DNA of 64,000 nt from Citrus sinensis (taxonomy: Eukaryota; Streptophyta; Magnoliopsida; Sapindales; Rutaceae), in assembly GCF_022201045.2 (NCBI RefSeq), contig NC_068557.1, positions 22,793,501 through 22,857,500 of the forward strand, read 5' to 3'. Shown in pieces: positions 44,954 through 63,540 of this stretch; the first letter of the stretch is position 1, and every line of letters begins with the position of its first letter. The position numbers were made by a program, and so were the translations under genes. The notes below the pieces were generated by a model. The model was not told the origin of the DNA, made no database searches, and was given only the letters and a program-made list of their open reading frames with translations.

Positions 44954-45889
44954 TCAAGCAGGAACATAGTAACTTAAAGCAAGAGGATGATGAAATTGTG
45001 TAGGCACAAGCAGGGGCTGAGGAATCACCAAGGGCTGCATATACTGAAACATCATAATCTCTGCAGGCTTACTCTCAATTCTCGAATCCAATCCATACAA
45101 GAACCCATCAAACGCACTTTCCTCAAGCTCATAGCGGTTCTTCATCTCTGCAAACACAGCAGCCGTGAGCAAGCTGTCGGACCCGGCATGGTGCGCGCCT
45201 CCGTGTCTCTTAACATTCAAAATCCTAGCAAGCTTTGATAACCCCAGCTTCAGGCCCTGTAATCCTTGACAATATCCCGCGACAACTTTAATATCAAAAA
45301 CACTCTGGAAAAACAGAGCAGCAACCCCAGAAAAGGCTTCGGCTGTCGGCGGCAATGCGTCGTTGGTAAAGATTTTAACCAAGTAAGCTACATCATACAA
45401 ACCATGGAAAGTGACCCACTTGAGATTCTCTCTGTGTTTGGACAGAACCTCCAAGAATCTTGGAGCAAAAACACACCTGGGAATCCCATCCTTCCGAATC
45501 TTGTCAAAATCCAAGCCGCTATCCTTCAAAAGCTGAATAGAATCACCAGCGTGAAGGTCTTTCTTGAGATCAAAGTCAGAGAAATTGAATTCAAAAGTAT
45601 AGCTGATCTTGCCCTCGTTGTCGGAGAGAGTAATGCCAAGTTGAATGAGGTGGGTGCAGTCAACGTTGAACTTGAGATCATTGTAAGACTCAACGGCCGG
45701 TGCGTTTCTGGGGGTGTTGCGGAGGAAGCCCGGGAACTCGGTGTCGATGGATAGCACGTTGAAACAATTTAAAAGCTTGTCAAGAAAGCGCATCACGATT
45801 TCGAAATTTTCACACCAAACATTAAGAATCTTGCTCACTACGGCCATGGCTAAAGAAGTGGAGTCTCTTTGTCTCTTTGGTGGAGGCAC
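44954..45889 (-). CDS. CAF1: CCR4-associated factor 1 (CAF1) deadenylase homolog
   Basis: CAF1 is the DEDD-type 3'-5' exonuclease of the CCR4-NOT complex that shortens mRNA poly(A) tails; plant CAF1s respond to stress and wounding. Single exon, 311 residues, as for many plant CAF1 genes. The catalytic residues are visible: D49 and E51 in SIDTEFPGF, D166 in FHGLYDVAYLVK, H234 and D238 in HHAGSDSLLT. The sequence is nearer the diverged CAF1-9/11 group than the conserved CAF1a/b group, from general appearance only. An alternative start at Met15 (MAVVSKILNVW) is equally plausible, because the first 14 residues are not part of the fold. The C-terminus is Pro/Tyr-rich (PLVIPQPLLVPTQF). The frame is intact. 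Confidence 0.92.
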   Translation of the reverse strand: MPPPKRQRDSTSLAMAVVSKILNVWCENFEIVMRFLDKLLNCFNVLSIDTEFPGFLRNTPRNAPAVESYNDLKFNVDCTHLIQLGITLSDNEGKISYTFEFNFSDFDLKKDLHAGDSIQLLKDSGLDFDKIRKDGIPRCVFAPRFLEVLSKHRENLKWVTFHGLYDVAYLVKIFTNDALPPTAEAFSGVAALFFQSVFDIKVVAGYCQGLQGLKLGLSKLARILNVKRHGGAHHAGSDSLLTAAVFAEMKNRYELEESAFDGFLYGLDSRIESKPAEIMMFQYMQPLVIPQPLLVPTQFHHPLALSYYVPA

Positions 45890-46721: not shown

Positions 46722-48107
46722 TGTTGAGTGTTAGAAAATGCATATTTATAAAGGAGAAAACCGTCATTTTACATTTTAAGTCTTACTAACAACCCTTACT
46801 TTTATATATTTAACCTTCTTGTGATTTAATTGCATGTGTTTTATTTTAATTAAGTATTTTATGTATTTTAGGGGCATTATAGTCATTTCACAATAAAGGA
46901 GAGATCAGACGGCAAAACGGACATCACTTTTGAACTCAGGACGGTCGAAAACCTTAGGAGGAGCATAAAAGGAAAAATGGCACTATTCACATGTACGGTA
47001 CTATTCACGTATACGGTACTGTCTACGTTACTGTTCACGACACTGTTCACATAGACGGATCGATGACGTGGCATTGACCGATGATGTGGCATTGACTGAT
47101 GAGGTGTCACGATCCTGTTGGGCTAAAATTCTTATGTACTGTTGATGGTGACGTGGCAGCATATCAGTGGACGAAAAATCTCGTGTACGGTGCATGCATC
47201 ACACAGGATTATTTTCAACCAAACCGCGTTACTGTTCATCCGGGTCAAACCGCGTTACTGTTCAAAGTCGGGTCAAACCGTGTTACTGTTCATCCGCGTG
47301 GTCAAACCGTGGACTGTTGACTGATGACGTGGCGCAATCCTGAGCGTCCAAACTGTTTTTAATCCGATGGCCATGATTTACTCCATGTATCTATAAAAAG
47401 GGGGCCTCCCCCCCCTAATTTGATATCTCTGAATCCATTTTTGGGATCCATTTTCTGTAATTCTCTCTCCATCTTGTATTTTCTATGTATTTTAATAAAT
47501 TCCCATTTTGCCCCTAGTTCAATTATGAGTGGCTAATTTTCTTTCAAGCTTGGGTTGAAGGTGAAGTCTCAACATGTGTCATGGGCTTAATTTGGTAAAT
47601 TTACTTTCTCTTCCCCTCTAGTTTTTGTGGATGTTTTGACTTCTCGTCGACAAATAATACTAATATTGTCTAGTACCGCCTTGGTTACACCGGCTCTCTA
47701 GTATAAGGTTATTATTATTTGGCACGATAAGCCCTTAGCACCATATTGATTAGAGCGTGGTTCATGAGGTGTGGATTCCCCCCTCATGATTTAATTGGCA
47801 TTAATACGGATTATTTAGCCCATGATGCATGTTGATACGGATCCGGATACCCAAGTGCGTCATTTCAATAGAATTCTCTTCAATTTCTTCTCGCCATTTC
47901 AATACCAATTTTAGAATTTATTCTCGCCATTTTAATTTAAGTTGTAGCATATTTCAAATCATTTCCACCATAATTCCAACCACCCATTTACAAAATTAAT
48001 TCTATATATAATTAAAATCCACCTCCTCGTGGGATCGACACTCGTCACCATTGATCTACACTACAATAGATTCGTGCGCTTGCGAGTACATTAAAATTTG
48101 CACAACA
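46722..48107 (+). repeat. 5' LTR of the Athila-like element
   Basis: A 1386-bp direct repeat of 57893-59278. The U3 part contains multiple TACTGTTCA/CTATTCAC motifs and TGACGTGGC motifs at 47064, 47149 and 47325. A TATA box (TATAAAAAG) starts at 47392, and an AATAAA signal follows near 47493. Small open frames inside the LTR occur identically in both copies and are not genes. Confidence 0.95.
47392..47400 (+). promoter_or_regulatory. TATA box of the Athila-like LTR promoter
   Basis: TATAAAAAG lies about two thirds of a kilobase into the LTR, downstream of the TGACGTGGC motif cluster, in the place expected for the U3 core promoter. The same box recurs in the 3' LTR at 58563. Confidence 0.7.
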
Positions 48108-48112
48108 AGTTT

Positions 48113-48131
48113 TTGGCGCCGTTGCCGGGGA
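48113..48131 (+). other. Primer-binding site, tRNA-Asp type
   Basis: TGGCGCCGTTGCCGGGGA, starting five bases after the 5' LTR, is complementary to the 3' end of plant tRNA-Asp. Athila-group elements commonly use this primer. Confidence 0.88.
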
Positions 48132-48517
48132 GGTAAGTAATTTTAATTCATAGAATTAATTTTTGTGAATAATTTCTTTTATTTGTTTTCTTGTATTTTT
48201 TTTATTATTAAAAAAAAAAGAAAAAAAAAGTGAATCTACATTTAAAGGTTAGTATTTCTTTTCTTTTTCTCTTCTTTAAAATTTTGTAATTTAATTTTCC
48301 ATTTATTTTTCTTTGTAATTTTTTTTGTTTATCTTATTAATTTAATTTTTAGTTAATTTCTTTCACGTATTTATTTTTGTGTATTTTTATAGAAAGGTTG
48401 TAATAGCGCAATAAGGTTAGTATCGTAATTTCTCCCTCTTCTTTATTTTTATTTGTTTTGTTCCCATCTTTATTTTTTGTTTTGTTTGCATCTTTATTTT
48501 TATTTTATTTATTTTGC

Positions 48518-51500
48518 ATGCATGGTCGTAGGTCATTATTACCTAATCTTGAACCTATAGACCTTGAACTAGAAAAAACACTTCGCACACACAAACACGT
48601 TAAAAATAAAATGGATTTACAAGCACCACAGGAGAGGCCATTTAAGGACTATTTTAGTCCCTTAGCTAATTTGAGCACGTCATGCATAAGATACCCAAAT
48701 GTAGCTGCTAGGAGTTTTGAATTAAAACCTAGTGTGTTAAATTGTCTCCCTACATTTTATGGCCTAGAAAATGAGGATCCATATAATCATTTGAATGATT
48801 TTCATGCCATTTGTCAAACATTCAAATATGAGAATTTTTCAGATGATGATGTTAAACTTAGACTATTCCCATTTTCTTTAAAGGATAGAGCTCGTTCATG
48901 GTTAAATACGTTGCCTGCTAATAGCATTACATCATGGGAACAAATGGTTACAAAATTTTTAAATAAATATTTTCCAGTGCATAAAACCAATGCTATTCGC
49001 AGGGAAATCTCGGAGTTTACCCAGAGAGAGGACGAGCAATTTTTTGAAACATGGGAGCGATTTAATGGGCTACTCTTGAAGTGTCCACATCATGGGTACG
49101 AAAAATGGCACCAATGTCAATACTTTTTGGAGGGATTACTACCAAATGTGCAAGAATGGCTAATGGCAACAAGTGGAGGAGAGCTAATGTCAAAAAGTGC
49201 ATCAGAAATTTGGGAATTCTTCCAGCGACAAGCGGATAATTCCCAACAACGGAGTCGATCACTCAGGAATACTAGAAGAATTAAAGGAGTAAATGAGGTT
49301 CAAATTGGCGAGTCAACTTCGGGAATCAAAGAAGTCAAGGAGATGGTTGAAGGTCTTGCTCGACAAATAGCATCGTTATCGACTGCTAAATCAACAGAAC
49401 CACATGACCATGACTCATACTCAGATCAAGCCAATGCCATAGGTGTAATGAGAAAGCCATCAAATTACAACCCATACTCCAACACATATAACCCTGGATG
49501 GAGAGACCACCCCAATTTTTCATGGTCTCAAGGACTCCAACAGAATGGACCAGCAGCTCCAGCTCCAGCTCCACCAATGCAACCAATTCCTCAAATTTCT
49601 CAAGCCTCTCAACCACCATTTAGACCATACAATCAGAACCAGAACCACTCTCAACCTAGACCATGGGAGGATGCATTCCAGAATTTCAGGAATGTTACTC
49701 ACTCCACGATTGAGCAACAGAACCGCACCATTGATGGACTACGAAATGAGTTGAGAGCAGGCTTCAATTCACAAGCCCAATCAGTTTCAAGCCTCGAGAA
49801 GATGGTGGGACAACTTGCTTCTTCAGTTCAGACCTTGGCAATGACTGTTGAGAAAGGCAAGTTTCCAAGTCAACCAGTGCCTAATCCTAAAGGAGTACAT
49901 GAAGCAAGTACCAGTTCACCACAGCAGCATGGAGAGGTCAAAGCAGTAATGACCTTGCGAAAAGGAAAGGAAGTCGACAACAAAGTGGAGATGCCGGTGA
50001 CAAAAGAAAATCAAATTGTACCTGTGAATGTTGAAGACTCATCACCGGAGGAGAAAGAAGAAACCAACCCACGAGAATACGTTCCGAAAGCTCCATTTCC
50101 TCAAAGGTTAGCGAAAGGAAAAAAGGGAAAATCCACAGGTGAGATTCTCGAAATCTTCAAACAGGTAAGTGTTAATATCCCTTTGCTTGATGCTATTAAA
50201 CAAGTTCCATCTTATGCCAAGTTTCTTAAAGACCTTTGTACTAAAAAGAGAAATATGCATGTTCAAAAGAAGGCATTTTTAACAGAAAATGTTAGTTCTA
50301 TACTCCAACATAAAATTCCTTTAAAATGCAAAGACCCTGGCTCCCCCACTATCTCATGTAGTATAGGGAACCACACAATTGAGAATGCTTTGTTGGATTT
50401 AGGAGCTAGTGTAAATCTTTTGCCTTACTCTGTATTCGTGAAACTTGGACTGGGAGAATTACACCCAACTCCAGTGGTGTTACAGCTTGCAGATCGGTCC
50501 ACGAAAATACCTCGTGGTATTGTGGAGGACGTGCTTATCCAGGTAGACAAGTTTTATTTTCCTGTTGATTTCATTGTAATTGACACTCAACCAATACAGG
50601 ATTCAAGGAAGCACATCCCCATTATTCTAGGCCGACCTTTCTTGGCAACTGCGGATGCTCACATTCAATGCAGGACTGGAAATATGCAGTTGTCCTTCGG
50701 CAACATGACTATGGAACTGAACATCTTCAACATTGCCAAACAACCTCACAGTGCAGATGATGGAATTGTTGATGTGGATTTAATAGAAACAATAGTTGAT
50801 AATACTTTTCTTTCAAACCTTAGTGATGATCCTTTACAGACATGCTTAACTCACTTTGGTTTGGATTTTGATATTGACAGATCGGTTGATGAGGTCAACG
50901 CCCTGCTTGACTCAGCACCATCTATGGACACTAATAAATGGAAGTCAAGAGTTGAACAACTAGCACCATCAGAGAAGCAACTCATTCCATCATCAGAATC
51001 ACCACCGAAACTCGAGCTCAAACCATTGCCCAACACTTTGGAATATGCGTTTTTGGGAGAAGAAAGCACTCTGCCGGTAATCATCTCATCATCCCTCAAT
51101 GACGAACAAAAAGGTAAGTTGTTGGATGTTTTAAAAGAGCATAAAGGGGCATTAGGATGGACCATAGCAGACATCAAAGGTATAAACCCAGTAGACTGCA
51201 TGCATTACATTCACCTTGATGAAAATGCTAAATCTACTAGGGAAATGCAACGTCGGTTAAATCCTAATATGAAAGAAGTTGTTAGAACAGAAGTCCTTAA
51301 GCTATTAGACGCAGGTATCATTTACCCAATTTCTGATAGTTCATGGGTCAGTCCTGTACAAGTTGTCCCCAAAAAGTCAGGAGTCACAGTAGTTACGAAT
51401 GCAGATAATGAATTGATACCCACTAGAGTAACTACAGGATGGCGTGTATGCATTGATTATAGAAAATTGAATTCTGTCACACGTAAAGACCATTTTCCTT

Positions 51501-53914
51501 TACCATTTATTGATCAAATGCTTGATAGATTAGCAGGCCATGAATTTTATTGCTTTCTAGATGGTTACTCAGGATATAATCAGATTCCCATAGCACCAAA
51601 AGATCAAGAGAAAACTACTTTCACTTGCCCTTTTGGCACATTTGCATATAGGAGAATGCCATTTGGATTATGTAATGCACCTGCTACATTTCAACGATGC
51701 ATGTTGAGCATTTTTTCTGATATGGTGGAACGATTCCTTGAAGTCTTTATGGATGATTTTTCTGTCTTTGGTGACTCGTTTGATCAATGTTTACATCATC
51801 TAACACTAGTTCTGCAGAGATGTATCGAGAAGAACTTGGTCTTAAATTGGGAGAAATGTCATTTTATGGTAAAACAAGGTATTGTTCTCGGTCACATCAT
51901 TTCGAGCAAAGGTATTGAGGTTGACAAAGCCAAGGTGGATCTCATTTCTAATCTTCCTCCACCTAAAACAGTCAGAGAAGTAAGATCTTTCCTTGGGCAT
52001 GCTGGTTTCTATAGACGTTTCATTAAAGATTTTAGCAAAGTTTCTAGACCCTTATGCAATTTACTTGCTAAGGATGTACCTTTTATCTTTAATGATTCAT
52101 GTCTTATGGCTTTTGAAAAATTAAAGCAATTGTTGACATCATCACCCATCATTCAGGCCCCAAACTGGAACTTACCATTTGAGCTTATGTGTGATGCATC
52201 TGATTATGCAGTAGGAGCAGTATTAGGACAAAGAGTTGATCGAATTCCCCATGTTATTTACTATGCTAGTATGACATTAAATGATGCACAGTTGAACTAT
52301 TCAACTACTGAAAAAGAAATGCTAGCAGTAGTGTTTGCATTAGAAAAATTTCGATCTTATCTCATTGGTTGTAAAATAATTGTGTTCACAGATCATGCTG
52401 CTCTTAAATATCTTCTCACAAAGAAAGATGCAAAAGCTAGACTAATTCGTTGGGTGTTACTTTTGCAGGAATTTGACTTGGAATTCAAAGATAAGAAAGG
52501 GACAGAAAATGTTGTGGCGGACCACCTCTCTCGTCTCCATTTTGACACAATTACAGAATCATTACCATTGAATGAGTCATTTCCAGATGAACAATTAATG
52601 AATGTGGAAGTATTACCTTGGTATGCTGATATAGTTAATTATCTTGTTACAGGTAAACTTCCAGAGCATTGGACCAAGCAAGACAAGGCTAAATTCTTTG
52701 CAGAGATAAAAAATTTCTTTTGGGATGACCCGTATTTGTTCAAGTATTGTGCAGACCAAATTGTTAGACGATGTGTCCCAGAAAGTGAAATTCAGAATAT
52801 CCTTTCATTCTGCCATGAACAAGCTTGTGGAGGCCATTTCAGTGCTAAGAAAACAGCGACTAAAGTTTTACAATGTGGTTTCTATTGGCCATCTATATTT
52901 CGAGACGCTTACACTTTCTGTTCTTCATGTGATAGGTGTCAACGAATGGGAAGCATTACACGAAGGAACATGATGCCACTAAATCCAATTTTAGTGGTTG
53001 AGATTTTTGATGTATGGGGTATCGACTTCATGGGACCCTTTCCCCCGTCTTTTGGCCATCAATACATATTGGTTGCTGTTGACTACGTATCAAAATGGGT
53101 AGAAGCAATTCCATGTAGGACCAATGATCACAAGGTGGTGATAGCATTTTTGAAGAGCAACATTGTTTCACGCTTTGGATTCCCTCGAGCAATAATCAGT
53201 GATGGTGGTGCCCACTTTTGTAACAAAGCATTCAAAGCACTTTTGACAAAGTATTCAATCACACACAAAGTGGCGACCCCGTATCATCCGCAAACCAGTG
53301 GCCAAGTTGAGATCTCCAATCGAGAAATAAAGCACATATTAGAAAAGACGGTGAGGCCGGACAGAAAAGATTGGTCATTAAGACTTGATGATGCCTTATG
53401 GGCATATAGAACGGCTTTCAAGACCCCGATTAGGATGTCACCCTACAGGCTAGTGTATGGAAAAGCTTGCCACCTACCTGTGGAACTCGAGCATCGTGCG
53501 TATTGGGCCATCAAGAAATTCAATTTTGACATGCAGCAAGCCAACTCAGAAAGAAGATTACAACTGGCAGAACTTGAAGAAATTCGCAATGATGCATACG
53601 AAAATGCCAAGATTTACAAGCAACGAATGAAAGTCTTCCATGACAAGCACGTTATGAGAAAATCGTTCACTCCAGGTCAGAAAGTGCTTTTATTCAATTC
53701 TCGCTTGCACCTATTCCCAGGTAAGTTACGCTCTCGTTGGTCTGGCCCATTTATTGTTCATACTGTTTTTCCACATGGGGCAATTGAAATTAAAGACCCA
53801 AAGAATGGTGTCACGTTTAAAGTTAATGGTCAAAGATTAAAGCCATATCTAGAGTACCAACCACATGAAGAAGACACCGAAATAAATTTGAGTGACCCAC
53901 CAAATTTGAATTGA
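48518..53914 (+). CDS. Athila-like gag-pol polyprotein, intact
   Basis: This protein makes the capsid and copies and integrates the element. The frame opens upstream at 48458, but the hydrophobic run before [20 protein letters not shown] is probably leader; the ATG at 48518 is preferred (1798 residues). Rough positions: Gag (about 40-260, [20 protein letters not shown]); aspartic protease (~625, [13 protein letters not shown]); reverse transcriptase (~970-1150, [20 protein letters not shown] and catalytic FMDDFSVFG); RNase H (~1220, [16 protein letters not shown]); integrase with a His/Cys zinc region (~1430, CHEQACGGH and CSSCDRC); and its D-D-E core ([29 protein letters not shown]). A C-terminal GPF-type block ([18 protein letters not shown]) follows. 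There are no stops or frameshifts, so the element should be coding-competent for these functions. Confidence 0.96.
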
Positions 53915-54000
53915 TTTTTTTTTTCTTCTCGTTGATTTGATTTTTCTTTCTTTCTTTTTATTATTATTCTTTTGCTAATTGAAATTGTTTTTGCATAAGT

Positions 54001-54276
54001 GTGTTTATTTTACCATTAAGTTTTCTCTTATCATTTTTAATCATGAGTCTCATACTTAGACCGTTCCTCCTGAACATTCTTAAACCACTTCAACGTGTCA
54101 AAACTCATCTCAAAAGACAGATTCAATTTTGTAAAACACATCGCATTTGGGCTCTACAACCACCAGAGTTAGTAGCCTATGTTGAGGGTTTAGAACACCA
54201 ACTCAGAGACATTGAGAGAAGTGTTTACGACATCCAGTTGGAGCTTGAGGTAAATTCAATAAGAGGACGATTTTAA
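54001..54276 (+). CDS. Small hydrophobic/basic protein of unknown function in the Athila-like element
   Basis: A 91-codon frame beginning 86 bp after gag-pol ends. I do not recognise the family. The first ~27 residues form a hydrophobic stretch (LSFLLSFLIMSLILRPFLL) that could be a membrane anchor or signal. The middle is strongly basic (RVKTHLKRQIQFCKTHRIW), and the end (ELVAYVEGLEHQLRDIERSV) could form a short coiled coil. An internal ATG at 54043 is an alternative start. It sits first in the cargo block, where Athila relatives often have an env-like frame, and may be a remnant of that. It could also be non-functional. Confidence 0.45.
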   Translation: MFILPLSFLLSFLIMSLILRPFLLNILKPLQRVKTHLKRQIQFCKTHRIWALQPPELVAYVEGLEHQLRDIERSVYDIQLELEVNSIRGRF

Positions 54277-54417
54277 TTTTCTTTGTGTGTTTTAATTTGT
54301 TTTTCTATTTGTGTGCTTTAGTTTGTTACCCCGGTGAAGTGGCGGATAACGGTACTCCGTGACAATCAAGTCGGTTACTTCAGTTTCCCATAATAACTGA
54401 TATTCTGAGGCGAAGGT

Positions 54418-54975
54418 ATGGACAGAAACGAGATTCTAGCGAAGCTTCACAAGCGATTCCCTTCACTTCCTCAGAATGCCCTCCTTACGATCTATAAAGC
54501 TCGGTCCGAACGCATGCGATTACTCATGAGGAATAACATACCTGCTGACATCCGTTGGTTAATCGAGGCTAAAGTACGATCGGCAGGTGAGTTACCTCTA
54601 AAATTTATTGCATACATGCCTGGTTGTGTTAAAGGAAATTATGCAAGAAAACGACGAGCTCGAAGAATTTCTGTTGCTTGTCATAAGTGTGCCAGAATGA
54701 GTTGCAATAAAAACCCATGTTCTTTAGGAATGGTGTCTGATAATAGGGAAGATAAGATTCAATTCATTAGGGATGGCTTGAATAAGGAGTCATTGGATGA
54801 TATCCTTTTGTCTCTTGAAACGCATCCCAGTGGATATGTGCAAGGAGCGATTCTCCAGTTATGGCCATTATTCCAGAAAGAGCATGCACGATATAGTCTC
54901 GGGAATCTGACTATAAACGACCCTGTTTGCCAGTTTATAAGAAAACTGGATAGGAAGCCTATCCTCGACCCATAG
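54418..54975 (+). CDS. Cysteine-rich basic protein resembling carlavirus-type nucleic-acid-binding proteins
   Basis: A 185-residue frame in the young Athila-like element. Residues 75-83 form a basic patch (YARKRRARR), followed directly by a cysteine cluster C88-x2-C91-x4-C96-x4-C101 (CHKCARMSCNKNPC). A block SLGMVSDNREDKIQFIRDG comes next. This order (helical N-terminal part, Arg-rich nuclear-localisation-like patch, zinc-binding cysteines, then a G-x-FI-x-x-G segment) matches, as I remember it, the small cysteine-rich nucleic-acid-binding proteins at the 3' end of carlavirus and related plant RNA virus genomes. Several of those suppress RNA silencing. I infer homology or capture from motif order only; chance resemblance of a basic zinc protein is the alternative. 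The ~85 residues after the cysteine region are not recognised. It has an ordinary ATG and no stops. Confidence 0.6.
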   Translation: MDRNEILAKLHKRFPSLPQNALLTIYKARSERMRLLMRNNIPADIRWLIEAKVRSAGELPLKFIAYMPGCVKGNYARKRRARRISVACHKCARMSCNKNPCSLGMVSDNREDKIQFIRDGLNKESLDDILLSLETHPSGYVQGAILQLWPLFQKEHARYSLGNLTINDPVCQFIRKLDRKPILDP

Positions 54976-55295
54976 AGGGCGTTCAAGCCGTTTCTGGACG
55001 TAAAACCAGAGGAAGATGTGAGCCACAGTCGCAACTACCTGTAAATATCCTTTTACTTTATTGTTATTTTATTTCACTATTGTCTTATTGTTTGCATTAT
55101 TGTCTTTAATAATTTTATTACTGTTTGCTTTTTCCTTTTTACTGTTTTCTTTTTGACTTGCGAGCCACGTGCTTTACGCGTTATTTGACACTGACATATT
55201 ACCTCATACACAACCATGACCCACTATCACCAAGACTCTTAAATGTGATTTCTTTTTTGTCAAGCACTCACAAATTGTTTTTGAGAAGTATCACA

Positions 55296-55964
55296 ATGTC
55301 AGCTACTCCCAATAGACAATTCAAGAACATTTGTGTGCTTTCTGGATTTACATATGGCAAACATAAAGAGTTCGTTGAGGCAGCCATAGATCTTGGTCGA
55401 AGCATAGCAGCGAGAAAATTACACTTGGTGTATGGAGGAGGTAACCGAGGGTTATCAAAAATGGTCTCAGAAGCAGCTTTTATCAGAGGAAGTCAAGTGT
55501 TAGGCATCATCCCAAGAGTCCTAAAACCATTGGGCAGTTCGTCTGACTCATCAACTGGAGAAGAGTTAGTCGTCTCAGGTATGCAAGAAAGAATAACTGA
55601 AATGCTTAATTATGCTGATGCTTTTATTTTCCTTCCAGGAGATCTTGCAACACTAGAGGCACTTATGACACTAGCATCTTGGGCCCATCTACACATTCAC
55701 CAGAAACCCATCGGTTTGTTAAATGTCAATAACTTTTATGATGGCTTTATCGCATTTCTTAACCATGCAATAAAAAACTATTTCATTCCCTCTAATGCGA
55801 AAAAACTCTTTATTTGTGCTCACACTGCTAATGAGCTACTTGATATGTTACAAGCTTATAAACCGGAGCCAGACCCCTGGACCTTTGTGTTGGAGCGACC
55901 AAATAATGATGGTAACAGTAGCCGCAGTAAGAAGTACAAATTAGATTTAACTCTCCGCCTGTAA
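55296..55964 (+). CDS. LOG-family (lysine decarboxylase-like) protein carried by the Athila-like element
   Basis: LOG proteins release active cytokinin bases from nucleotide precursors in the cytosol. The frame is open from 55125, but the ATG at 55296 (MSATPNRQFKNICVLSGF) gives 222 residues, the normal LOG size, and aligns with LOG starts. Visible landmarks: the Rossmann start ICVLSGFTYGKHKEF, the nucleotide loop LVYGGGNRGLSKMVSEA, VLGIIPRVLKP, MQERITEML (keeping the family Arg), and QKPIGLLNVNNFYDGFIAFL. The family's PGGxGTxxE catalytic motif reads PGDLATLEA, so two Gly and the last acidic residue are changed; activity may be lost or altered. Plant LOG genes have several introns and this copy has none, pointing to capture from a spliced RNA. 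The frame is intact while the motif has changed, so selection for another role is possible. Confidence 0.85.
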   Translation: MSATPNRQFKNICVLSGFTYGKHKEFVEAAIDLGRSIAARKLHLVYGGGNRGLSKMVSEAAFIRGSQVLGIIPRVLKPLGSSSDSSTGEELVVSGMQERITEMLNYADAFIFLPGDLATLEALMTLASWAHLHIHQKPIGLLNVNNFYDGFIAFLNHAIKNYFIPSNAKKLFICAHTANELLDMLQAYKPEPDPWTFVLERPNNDGNSSRSKKYKLDLTLRL

Positions 55965-57880
55965 ATATTTTCTTCTGTGTTGCACCACCCAGGTGATGTC
56001 TTCTAAACTCTACTTCTTTCATTTCAAACATTGAGGACAATGTTTCGTTCTGGTTGGGGGGAGGGAATAGTCGACAATTGTGGAATTTTGGTTAAGTTTT
56101 TACTAATTTTTTGTTGTAGAAGCTAACTGTTGCTAACTTTTTGTGTTGAAGATGGCTGAATATGGAGTGTAGTTACTCTAGAAACGCATCTTCATTGTTT
56201 GAAAAAAAAATTTAAAAAAAAAAAAAAACAATTCAGACATTTTCTTTTTCTTTATTATGTGTTTATGTTTATTTTTCTTCTTTAATTTCTCCTCTATAAA
56301 TATACATTTTCCAACTTTTGAGTCGAAGATGGCTGAATATGGAGTGTAGTTCCTCTAGAAACGCATCTTCTTTTAAAAAAAAAAAAATCATTTTCGTTTT
56401 CTATCATTTTACGTGTAACTTTTCTAATTAGTTTTTATACATCATTTTCACATTTCTGCATGCATATTTTCCTTTCATGTTTAGAATAGGTTGGGGGGTA
56501 GAATGATGTTTAAAAAAAAAAATGTGTGATTTGTTTTAACATTGGATGACATGATTAATTTCAAATTTTAGTATTTGTATTATCTTTGGTCTTAAGTGAT
56601 GTTACGCTATGTTTGCTACTTTACATGTTGATGTCGGAGACAAATGTGAGTTGCTTGAAGGAATGAACATGTCATAATAAGTACCAAGTGAGTTTTTTAG
56701 CCTATTATTTTTCTTGGAGAATAACCCTTTTGCCCACTCTTTATACAGCTTAGCAGTTTATTATTTTATACACGATCTCTAAATTACTTTTGAGTTAACC
56801 CTTAAAAAAAAAATTGTAAAATAAAAAAAAGAGAGAAAAAAGAAAAAGAAAAAAGAGTGTGTTGCTACATTTGGAGGCCCATCTAACTAGTAGATATGGA
56901 AGATTATTTAGAGCCCTAAAAGACGATGGAGAGGCCATCTTTGATCCGTTTGAGCCTTTCAAGCCATCCCTTTTATTTAATATCCATAGTTAACCCTTTT
57001 GAGCCTATAAAAAATAAAAAAAAATAAAAAAACCTTTTCTTTGTCAACTTATCATCTTGACCCACTCCGATTTGGAGTATTACCCGATATCTTATAAGTT
57101 CCATCACCTATTTATGTTTGAGAAAATGTAAATAATTATTTTGTTCAGTGAAGTTATGCCAAATAAAAAAAAACAAAACAAAAACAAAAGTTGTTGTTTC
57201 AAAAGAATAAAAATAGGTGAAATCCACCTTGCAACTTCCAAAAAAAAAAAAAAAAAAATTCTCTGCATTTTTCTCAAACATACACTTTGTTTTCCTTATT
57301 TTCCTTCTTTGTTAGCCATGTCCCTAGCCTACGTTTCGTCCTAATAAAAGTCCTTCTTGATTTTAGGGAACTATAGTTTGAAGTAGAAGCTAGTTATATG
57401 GGCTAAAAAGATGTAGTGATGCATAATTAAAAAAAAAAAAAGATAAATAAAGTGGGTTGACTAACATTTTATTTGACTTGAGATCGTATTATTTCTAAGC
57501 TGAGGGCATATTTATTTCATCTTGGTGAGAGCATGTGATATCACTTCTTTATTATTTTCTCTCTCAATTACCATTCATTGGAGTGACTATTTTTATTGGG
57601 ATTAATTTATTTGTGAGAGTGTCACTACTTCCAGTGAGATTTTGGGGTTTGACATGTCATTCTTGAGAGTAGCTATAACAAAGTCTACTGGGCTAATTCA
57701 TGTGGATGGTTGATGTGGGTGTGATGTTGCTTTAGACTGGAGATAATGCTTATACTTTTATTTGATTGCTATCATTAATCTGATGGAATAAATACGAGTG
57801 TTTCTATTAAAACAAAAAAAAAAATTATTTTGAATTTGAATTTTGTTTTCGCTTTATTTGCTAGGGACTAGCAATAAGCT
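55965..57880. other. Non-coding 3' region of the Athila-like element
   Basis: About 1.9 kb of A/T-rich sequence with many A runs and no coding frame of note. It contains the 46-bp direct repeats at 56148 and 56325, and two internal copies of the GGTTGGGGGG purine tract (56052 and 56489) besides the terminal polypurine tract. Long non-coding stretches before the 3' LTR are usual for Athila-type elements. Confidence 0.7.
56148..56370 (+). repeat. Pair of 46-bp direct repeats with complementary ends
   Basis: Copies at 56148-56193 and 56325-56370 differ at one base. Each starts GAAGATG and ends CATCTTC, so each can fold into a hairpin with a 7-bp stem. They sit in the non-coding tail between the LOG-like frame and the 3' LTR. 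Confidence 0.85.
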
Positions 57881-57892
57881 GGTTGGGGGGTG
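57881..57892 (+). other. Polypurine tract of the Athila-like element
   Basis: GGTTGGGGGGTG directly abuts the 3' LTR, the position where plus-strand DNA synthesis is primed. Very similar tracts at 56052-56065 and 56489-56499 may be extra plus-strand start sites. Confidence 0.8.
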
Positions 57893-59278
57893 TGTTGAGT
57901 GTTAGAAAATACATATTTATAAAGGAGAAAACCGTCATTTTACATTTTAAATCTTACTAACAACCCTTACTTTTATATATTTAACCTTCTTGTGATTTAA
58001 TTGCATGTGTTTTATTTTAATTAAGTATTTTATGTATTTTAGGGGCATTATAGTCATTTCACAATAAAGGAGAGATCAGACGGCAAAACGGACATCACTT
58101 TTGAACTCAGGACGGTCGAAAACCTTAGGAGGAGCATAAAAGGAAAAATGGCACTATTCACATGTACGGTACTATTCACGTATACGGTACTGTCTACGTT
58201 ACTGTTCACGACACTGTTCACATAGACGGATCGATGACGTGGCATTGACCGATGATGTGGCATTGACTGATGAGGTGTCACGATCCTGTTGGGCTAAAAT
58301 TCTTATGTACTGTTGATGGTGACGTGGCAGCATATCAGTGGACGAAAAATCTCGTGTACGGTGCATGCATCACACAGGATTATTTTCAACCAAACCGCGT
58401 TACTGTTCATCCGGGTCAAACCGCGTTACTGTTCAAAGTCGGGTCAAACCGTGTTACTGTTCATCCGCGTGGTCAAACCGTGGACTGTTGACTGATGACG
58501 TGGCGCAATCCTGAGCGTCCAAACTGTTTTTAATCCGATGGCCATGATTTACTCCATGTATCTATAAAAAGGGGGCCTCCCCCCCCTAATTTGATATCTC
58601 TGAATCCATTTTTGGGATCCATTTTCTGTAATTCTCTCTCCATCTTGTATTTTCTATGTATTTTAATAAATTCCCATTTTGCCCCTAGTTCAATTATGAG
58701 TGGCTAATTTTCTTTCAAGCTTGGGTTGAAGGTGAAGTCTCAACATGTGTCATGGGCTTAATTTGGTAAATTTACTTTCTCTTCCCCTCTAGTTTTTGTG
58801 GATGTTTTGACTTCTCGTCGACAAATAATACTAATCTTGTCTAGTACTGCCTTGGTTACACCGGCTCTCTAGTATAAGGTTATTATTATTTGGCACGATA
58901 AGCCCTTAGCACCATATTGATTAGAGCGTGGTTCATGAGGTGTGGATTCCCCCCTCATGATTTAATTGGCATTAATACGGATTATTTAGCCCATGATGCA
59001 TGTTGATACGGATCCGGATACCCAAGTGCGTCATTTCAATAGAATTCTCTTCAATTTCTTCTCGCCATTTCAATACCAATTTTAGAATTTATTCTCGCCA
59101 TTTTAATTTAAGTTGTAGCATATTTCAAATCATTTCCACCATAATTCCAACCACCCATTTACAAAATTAATTCTATATATAATTAAAATCCACCTCCTCG
59201 TGGGATCGACACCCGTCACCATTGATCTACACTACAATAGATTCGTGCGCTTGCGAGTACATTAAAATTTGCACAACA
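57893..59278 (+). repeat. 3' LTR of the Athila-like element
   Basis: A 1386-bp copy of 46722-48107 at an offset of exactly 11,171 bp, with about five single-base differences. It is followed by the TCTAC target duplication. Confidence 0.95.
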
Positions 59279-62784: not shown

Positions 62785-62934
62785 AACCTTGTTTTCTATG
62801 TAAATTCTGAATTTTTGTTTATTTGCAAATGTTTGAGTGTTTATAAACCTTTGATGTTTTTCAGTTTCTTTCTTGCTATAGTTATGCTTATGGGTTGTTT
62901 CTGGAAATTACCTTGAAAAATATGTCAGTTTGTC

Positions 62935-63540
62935 TTTGAGTGACCGAGGAGAAATAGGCAATTCCTTGTCTTAACGATTTCATAGAATTTTGCTTGTTAG
63001 TCCTTCAAACGACTAAGCAGGAGTTGGCACATGTTTGCCTTAGTAAAATTTTATAGAATTTGCATGCTGGTTCTTTAGGCGACCGAGCAGAAATAGGCAC
63101 ATGTTTGCCTTAGTAAAATTTTGTAGAATTTTCCTGCTGGTCCTTTAGGCGACCGAGCAGGAATAAACACACGTTTGCCTTAGTAAAATTTTATAGAATT
63201 TGCCTGCTGGTCCTTTAGGCGACCGAGCAGGAATAGACACATGTTTGCCTTAGTAAAATTTTGTAGAATTTGCTTGCTGGTCCTTTAGGCGACCGAGTAG
63301 GAATTGGCACTTGCTTGCATTAACAAATTTAGTAGACTTTACTTGCTGGTCCTTTAGACGACCGAGTAGGAATTGACACTTGCTTGCCTTAACAAATTTA
63401 ATGGACTTTGCCCGCTGGTCCTATAGACGACTGAGCAGGAATTGACACTCGTTTGTCTTAACAAATTTAGTAGACTTTGCCTACTGGTCTTTTAGACGAT
63501 CGAGCAGGAATATGCATTTACTTGCCTTAACAAATTTAGT
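62935..63540. repeat. Tandem array of 69-70-bp repeats (about eight to nine copies)
   Basis: The motif GACCGAG (or near variants) recurs at about 62942, 63010, 63081, 63151, 63221, 63291, 63360, 63429 and 63498, that is every 68-70 bp. Each unit has CTGGTCCTTTAGGCGACCGA, a central CAC-TTGCCTTA and an AAATTT-rich end. The array lies between the antisense frame and the pol end of the Tat-like element. Satellite-like arrays at this place are typical of Tat elements. Confidence 0.9.

Follow-up and report, generated by a model that had tools for sequence, protein, structure and literature searches.

The window analyzed here is a stretch of 64,000 nucleotides of the Citrus sinensis genome (contig NC_068557.1, positions 22,793,501 to 22,857,500 of the forward strand). 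It contains an LTR retrotransposon that carries, between pol and its 3' LTR, genes for a basic cysteine-rich protein (CRP) and for a LOG-family protein. The features of the element are as follows.

46722-59278, plus strand: whole element, delimited by the LTR pair and TSD
46722..48107, plus strand: 5' LTR, 1386 bp, the same as the 3' LTR at 1381 of 1386 positions
48114..48131, plus strand: PBS TGGCGCCGTTGCCGGGGA, directly after the 5' LTR
48458..53914, plus strand: gag-pol, a single intact frame of 1818 codons
54043..54276, plus strand: small ORF of 77 aa, an open frame with no family above cut-off
54319..54401, plus strand: conserved non-coding block 1, just 5' of CRP
54418..54975, plus strand: CRP, 185 aa, basic, with a CX2CX4CX4C motif, an open frame
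54886..55047, plus strand: conserved block 2, straddling the CRP stop codon
55296..55964, plus strand: LOG-family protein, intronless, 222 aa, with the catalytic Glu replaced by Ala
57881..57892, plus strand: polypurine tract-like sequence GGTTGGGGGGTG before the 3' LTR, recognized by sequence
57893..59278, plus strand: 3' LTR, 1386 bp

The LTRs, described as near-identical in the initial annotation, differ at five of 1386 bp (four transitions and one transversion, with no gaps), and the 5 bp TSD TCTAC flanks the element on either side. The intact Athila-like gag-pol and the two intact frames before the 3' LTR, also described there, are open at the coordinates listed. Profile matches within gag-pol are to gag, aspartic protease, RT, RNase H and integrase, with a single RNase H region; no chromodomain was found among the profile matches of this frame. 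The PBS is presumably of the tRNA-Asp type. With its LTR pair, TSD, PBS and PPT, and with gag, protease, RT, RNase H and integrase in one frame, the element is a young Ty3/gypsy element of the Athila type, the lineage name being given by organization and the presumed PBS type. The LOG frame is open over 55125-55964, with its first ATG at 55296, 321 nt after CRP. For the small ORF, a longer 91-aa frame gave a match to SKA1 that lies below the cut-off (E 0.04).

A search of the 299.7 Mb genome (11 contigs) found the cargo well beyond this single copy. For CRP, the best 150 of 1882 first-look candidates were scored, and all 150 had 97-100% identity and covered at least 184 of the 185 residues; for LOG, identity was 96-100% in all of the best 150 scored out of 2102 candidates. 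In each case 149 of the 150 were stop-free, which gives the C. sinensis genome at least 149 stop-free CRP copies. Since only the best candidates are scored, older copies were hidden, and an older subfamily surfaced with a divergent query. Among the young loci (n = 42), CRP was full length and stop-free in all 42 and LOG in 41. Among the older loci (n = 34), CRP was covered to at least 95% in one stretch in 29, of which 10 were stop-free, and LOG in 15, of which five were stop-free. The order pol, small ORF, CRP, LOG is repeated in the older loci that retain these genes, and CRP of this older lineage is 60-69% identical to that of the window. The small ORF is present in both subfamilies, at about 50% identity, and the intronless LOG-family gene predates the split of the genome's two subfamilies.

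Between lineages, CRP and LOG are under purifying selection. Comparison of the window with the older subfamily gave a dN/dS of 0.21 for CRP (34 comparisons), 0.18 for LOG (25 sufficiently covered comparisons) and 0.33 for the small ORF (29 comparisons), while pol was synonymously saturated with a dN of 0.23 (14 comparisons). Within the young family, 30 loci picked by CRP similarity gave 0.085 for pol, 0.037 for CRP (a value biased low by the choice of loci), 0.19 for LOG and 0.82 for the small ORF, which is thus under little constraint at this level. A sample of thirteen copies, made up of the window and 12 chosen for their LOG similarity, gave 0.55 for CRP and 0.14 for LOG, and with 0.55 in one sample, copies this young do not prove recent constraint on CRP. 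Mean synonymous divergence across the young loci L001-L030 was 0.088 for pol, 0.012 for CRP and 0.057 for LOG, an unevenness that is partly due to locus choice and fits recombination between element RNAs (template switching).

The CRP had been likened to nucleic-acid-binding proteins of plant RNA viruses. This likeness stands for the family and does not stand for the window's own sequence alone, whose match to Carla_C4 is not significant (E 0.16, score 12.4 against a curated cut-off of 20.9). In an alignment of 69 rows (the window and 68 of 120 listed relatives, mostly full-length), Viral_NABP was matched by 63 members at E<=0.1 (best 1.1e-8) and Carla_C4 by 64 (best 3.7e-8); twelve other Pfam families listed were matched by 1 to 6 members each (best E 0.0018). 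Two relatives were scored against the curated cut-offs of PF05515 and PF01623, 23 and 20.9: P0017 exceeded both (33.8 and 28.5), and P0034 exceeded the first (34.1) and fell below the second (20.4). The Viral_NABP match covers residues 39-121 in P0017 and 40-127 in P0034 (83 and 88 residues). It was gone in eight of eight cysteine-anchored shuffles, and one of the eight reached Carla_C4 (E 0.0047), so Viral_NABP carries the weight. Members of the family have an arginine/lysine-rich stretch followed by the four-cysteine motif, whose positions are Cys in 75, 79, 78 and 75 of 80 rows. By profile homology, the CRP family is related to flexivirus nucleic-acid-binding proteins, and its coding position, between pol and the 3' LTR, is not that of a positive-strand RNA virus genome.

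Structure models of CRP were poor (pLDDT 66 and 60), and none of the fold matches reaches significance on its own. Against viral structures, the first model returned eight rows, headed by the cherry mottle leaf virus 15kDa protein (E 0.35) and, second, a fig latent virus 1 'RNA silencing suppressor' (E 3.0). With the second model, flexivirus small proteins made up 10 of the first 11 rows and 11 of 20 at E<=10, with E values of 0.21 and worse, under the names 'RNA silencing suppressor', 'nucleic acid binding protein' and, once, '15kDa protein'. The viruses in these rows are ones we take to be flexiviruses. The fold searches are not independent of the profile match because the sequence also enters them. 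Viral contigs scanned with the whole CRP alignment and with a core alignment yielded no relatives, and neither solved structures nor PHROGs matched CRP at E<=1.

Plant proteins related to CRP numbered 267 at E<=1, and the 120 listed include the named hosts Citrus, Xanthoceras, Acer and Populus. A core CRP profile returned 913 proteins at E<=10 among 1730 candidates, with kinship not certain for all; the best 120 listed all have E below 1e-36, and the hosts added were Rhamnella, Parasponia and the asterid Striga. The named hosts presumably span six plant families. The retroelement setting of CRP is known from the C. sinensis genome and from the related element L077, and CRP of other plants from proteins alone. 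In a tree of 84 CRP rows the genome's two lineages form separate groups, each at 100/100. Gene models in public annotation that fuse CRP and LOG were taken as predictor artefacts, since the two joints inspected (P0005 and P0013) differ.

L077 (DAIEQH010000041.1) is a 3330-bp contig of a plant retroelement filed under a bacterial MAG; it is plant contamination in a Candidatus Nomurabacteria MAG. The end of its pol is 74.7% identical to that of the window over 323 residues, with one stop further upstream in pol. Its CRP, the same sequence as P0034, is 66% identical to that of the window (dN 0.24, dS 1.47). With this CRP as query, the best 150 of 1839 candidates scored in C. sinensis reached at most 70% identity, and L077 therefore represents a lineage not seen in this genome. 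The small ORF has no match in L077, and LOG has none in the 983 nt sequenced after CRP. Since L077 has CRP and both conserved blocks without a nearby LOG, the common module consists of CRP and the blocks, and the two cargoes do not always travel together. Either some lineages gained LOG, or the lineage of L077 lost it.

The blocks are more conserved than the coding sequence that they flank. A 165-nt query for block 2 (54886-55050) aligned with L077 over 160 nt at 90.0% identity and matched 33 of the 34 older loci at a median of 89.7%; the corresponding values for a 443-nt CRP coding query were 67.3% (over 398 nt) and 69.9%. Block 1 was 87.3% identical to L077 over 79 nt and matched all 34 older loci at a median of 80.6% over 71 nt, and a 60-nt identity profile showed the same conservation peaks. 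In comparison with L077, synonymous difference was 0.29 in the last 30 CRP codons and 0.72 in codons 1-155, and in comparison with the older copies it was 0.14 and 0.68, respectively; 3' of the CRP stop 61 of 69 nt are the same in L077. Block 2 is predicted to fold into several hairpins (-44.1 kcal/mol, z -2.11, a stability matched by 8 of 200 shuffles), and 4 of 39 consensus pairs had two-sided change in a set of 17 varied sequences, chosen from 48 distinct ones with indels, insertions and near-duplicates left out. Block 1 gave 0 of 19 such pairs (12 of 44 distinct sequences) and a weakly supported fold (z -1.55). The constraint on sequence is strong and the evidence for structure modest, and block 2 is likely an RNA element. 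Nothing in Rfam came near a gathering score for the CRP region, and a 26-base block-2 pattern was absent from the viral contigs.

The CRP frame is open for 22 codons past its TAG stop (54976-55044), to a TAA common to L077, and one relative (P0071) has Trp at the stop position and reads on. Against L077, this stretch has eight changed codons, of which four would be synonymous, a count that neither shows nor excludes a read-through protein. An RNA-level reading is preferred over read-through because the last 30 CRP codons are synonymously constrained too. The sequence after the PBS includes AG/GTAAGT, a possible splice donor, and L077 and L062 have a pyrimidine-rich stretch with CAG upstream of block 1. 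The donor pattern MAGGTAAGT, to which the leader site is no exact fit, occurs three times in the window, all inside gag-pol, a count reached by 12 of 100 shuffles. A spliced element RNA is a possibility.

The LOG-family assignment of the intronless frame, also made in the initial annotation, is sound: it scores 130.1 against TIGR00730 (cut-off 96.35) and 99.5 against Lysine_decarbox (cut-off 27), and matches chain 2a33 (At2g37210) at E 8.2e-45. The best named matches are proteins of Citrus x changshan-huyou at 96-98%. According to the available part of a study of the Corynebacterium LOG (PMC4979012), catalysis in the C. glutamicum enzyme is attributed to the pair Arg99 and Glu122, and the phosphate is bound by Gly116, Ala117, Gly118 and Thr119. 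Its active site is located at the dimer interface, and alanine swaps of the crucial residues, with the exception of Ser19, nearly abolish activity. By alignment to this numbering, the motif PGGxGTxxE has become PGDLATLEA in both subfamilies. Glu122 is present in none of the 68 readable genomic copies (41 of 41 young and 27 of 27 older copies are without it), Ala standing in its place in 63. Asp occupies position 116 in 68 of 69 readable copies; at position 118, 63 of 68 have Ala and none has Gly. Both phosphate-site glycines are replaced in every readable genomic copy. Position 100 is Ile in place of Lys100 in all 68, and Arg99 is kept in 66 of 68. The protein thus looks like a conserved pseudoenzyme, as predicted from its residues.

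The explanation that we favor, with confidence slightly better than even, is that a high-copy element of the Athila type carries a CRP captured from a virus, the conserved blocks and a pseudoenzyme LOG, with CRP blunting silencing. The CRP gene was likely captured by the element lineage from a flexivirus. Full-length or spliced element RNA would be translated into CRP, which is predicted to bind RNA and to blunt plant silencing of the element, and the blocks may steer CRP translation or RNA packaging. Both activities of CRP are suggested by its viral relatives: in the available text of PMC12172455, flexivirus CRPs are virulence factors, several of which suppress silencing, also in a citrus virus, and the carlavirus p12 is in addition a transcription factor that causes hyperplasia. 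LOG, which keeps its catalytic arginine, its profile and its selection without the catalytic glutamate and two phosphate-site glycines, would likely be a nucleotide-binding or dimer-forming pseudoenzyme that does not make cytokinin. It might, for example, pair with host LOG subunits, given that LOG dimers have their active site at the interface.

In a close rival explanation, CRP is the missing nucleocapsid and acts, with block 2 as its binding site, as a zinc-finger RNA chaperone when the RNA is packaged or reverse transcribed, and suppression is secondary or absent. The rivalry is close because Gag has no zinc knuckle, a motif search for CX2CX4[HC]X4C having found none in gag-pol, and CRP is basic, has four cysteines at zinc-knuckle spacing and is flanked by conserved blocks. 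The Pfam matches of the aligned CRP family are nevertheless to viral accessory proteins, with no nucleocapsid model among those listed, and we consider the nucleocapsid role rather improbable, if worth serious attention.

Gene flow could also have run the other way, with flexivirus nucleic-acid-binding proteins derived from a plant retroelement gene, or both could come from a lost plant gene. The CRP family is widespread in eudicot sequence, its members are longer (182-185 aa) than the viral proteins of the fold search (77-139 aa), and the genome's two lineages, at 60-69% identity to the CRP of the window, are about as divergent as Citrus and Populus (60-64%). Against this, no characterized cellular protein was found among the named hits in the best 120 of each search, in which most hits are unnamed, and capture of RNA-virus domains by retrotransposons has precedent in the available parts of PMC5563155 and PMC4686597. 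We judge reverse or common flow unlikely, and capture from a virus remains the preferred direction.

The initial annotation proposed a host-manipulation cassette in which CRP suppresses silencing and LOG activates cytokinin, altering cell state. What survives of it is an LTR element with a conserved viral-type protein in many copies; the activating LOG does not survive, nor does a constant union of the two cargoes, as L077 illustrates. The LOG family profiles and purifying selection would suit a working enzyme. Activation of cytokinin nevertheless fails because the catalytic Glu is absent from all 68 readable genomic copies, and on its active-site residues LOG is rejected as a cytokinin activator. 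Of the best 120 of 596 LOG relatives, 118 are readable at position 122 (2 are not); 109 have Ala there and none has Glu. Exactly PGDLATLEA is found in 56 of the 120, and the LOG protein of the window scores 90.5 against the NCBI equivalog NF058542, short of its cut-off of 300. With the phosphate-site glycines replaced as well, we regard the cassette in its original form as very improbable. Equally hard to credit is the view that the cargo is passive baggage of a burst of young copies, for which the CRP dN/dS of 0.55 in one sample speaks, and intact frames alone prove little here because the copies are young and similar; between lineages, however, CRP and LOG do not evolve neutrally (dN/dS 0.18-0.25), and CRP and block 2 are kept in a lineage absent from this genome.

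The favored explanation can be extended, tentatively and with confidence well short of even, to an LTR lineage found throughout the eudicots that would have taken a viral suppressor gene together with, or later fitted with, a cis RNA element overlapping its stop codon, and kept both through rosids and asterids. Citrus would have added a disarmed LOG that sabotages host LOG dimers, and the element would be a parasite fighting silencing with a viral weapon.

Plant LTR retrotransposons often bear extra genes after pol, whose origin and use are a long-standing open question. One of these genes, CRP, can be related to a named family, that of the nucleic-acid-binding proteins of plant RNA viruses, and it therefore has concrete candidate functions, RNA binding and silencing suppression, that can be tested in leaf assays. 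If these are borne out, viruses and retrotransposons would exchange counter-defense genes in plants. Ty3/gypsy elements of Citrus and Populus with a LOG (YgdH) domain were reportedly described by Steinbauerova in 2011. The LOG of such elements is already known: the available part of PMC9289625 places a LOG (YgdH) domain in consensus Ty3/gypsy elements of Citrus sinensis, C. clementina and Populus trichocarpa. These share with the element of the window the superfamily, the extra LOG-family domain and the occurrence in Citrus, and they are probably of the same family, but a viral-type CRP, the loss of the catalytic glutamate and conserved blocks are not described in that part of the paper. The flexivirus proteins (PF05515 and PF01623, for example of carlaviruses, trichoviruses and mandariviruses) are like CRP in the 83-88-residue profile match, in the basic stretch followed by the cysteine motif and in a gene near the 3' end; CRP differs in being encoded by a retrotransposon, in its greater length (182-185 aa) and in its conserved N- and C-terminal parts. 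Insect LINEs with a plant-virus-type helicase offer a parallel, as retrotransposons that keep an RNA-virus domain proposed to suppress silencing (PMC5563155, PMC4686597 and PMC6338049, in their available parts), but they are non-LTR elements with the helicase fused in ORF2, whereas here a separate gene lies in a plant LTR element. The ORFs in the env-like position of plant LTR elements are likewise in sense orientation; according to the available part of PMC6317226 they diverge strongly, and no single domain is shared by most members of a lineage, whereas CRP belongs to a named viral family across plant families. Searches of an open-licence library brought up no report of a flexivirus-type nucleic-acid-binding protein in plant LTR retrotransposons, of its distribution or of the conserved blocks, including the one across the CRP stop codon.

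For annotation, the altered active site has a direct consequence. UniRef names LOG proteins of citrus retrotransposons (for example P0123, with PGDLATLEA) as cytokinin riboside 5'-monophosphate phosphoribohydrolase, and citrus 'phosphoribohydrolase' entries such as this are retrotransposon proteins without the catalytic glutamate.

Two further features of the window lie outside the element. An intact 311-aa frame beside it on the minus strand (44954-45889) appears by eye to be CAF1-type deadenylase-like, and an imperfect tandem repeat array with a period of 69-70 bp occupies 62907-63531.
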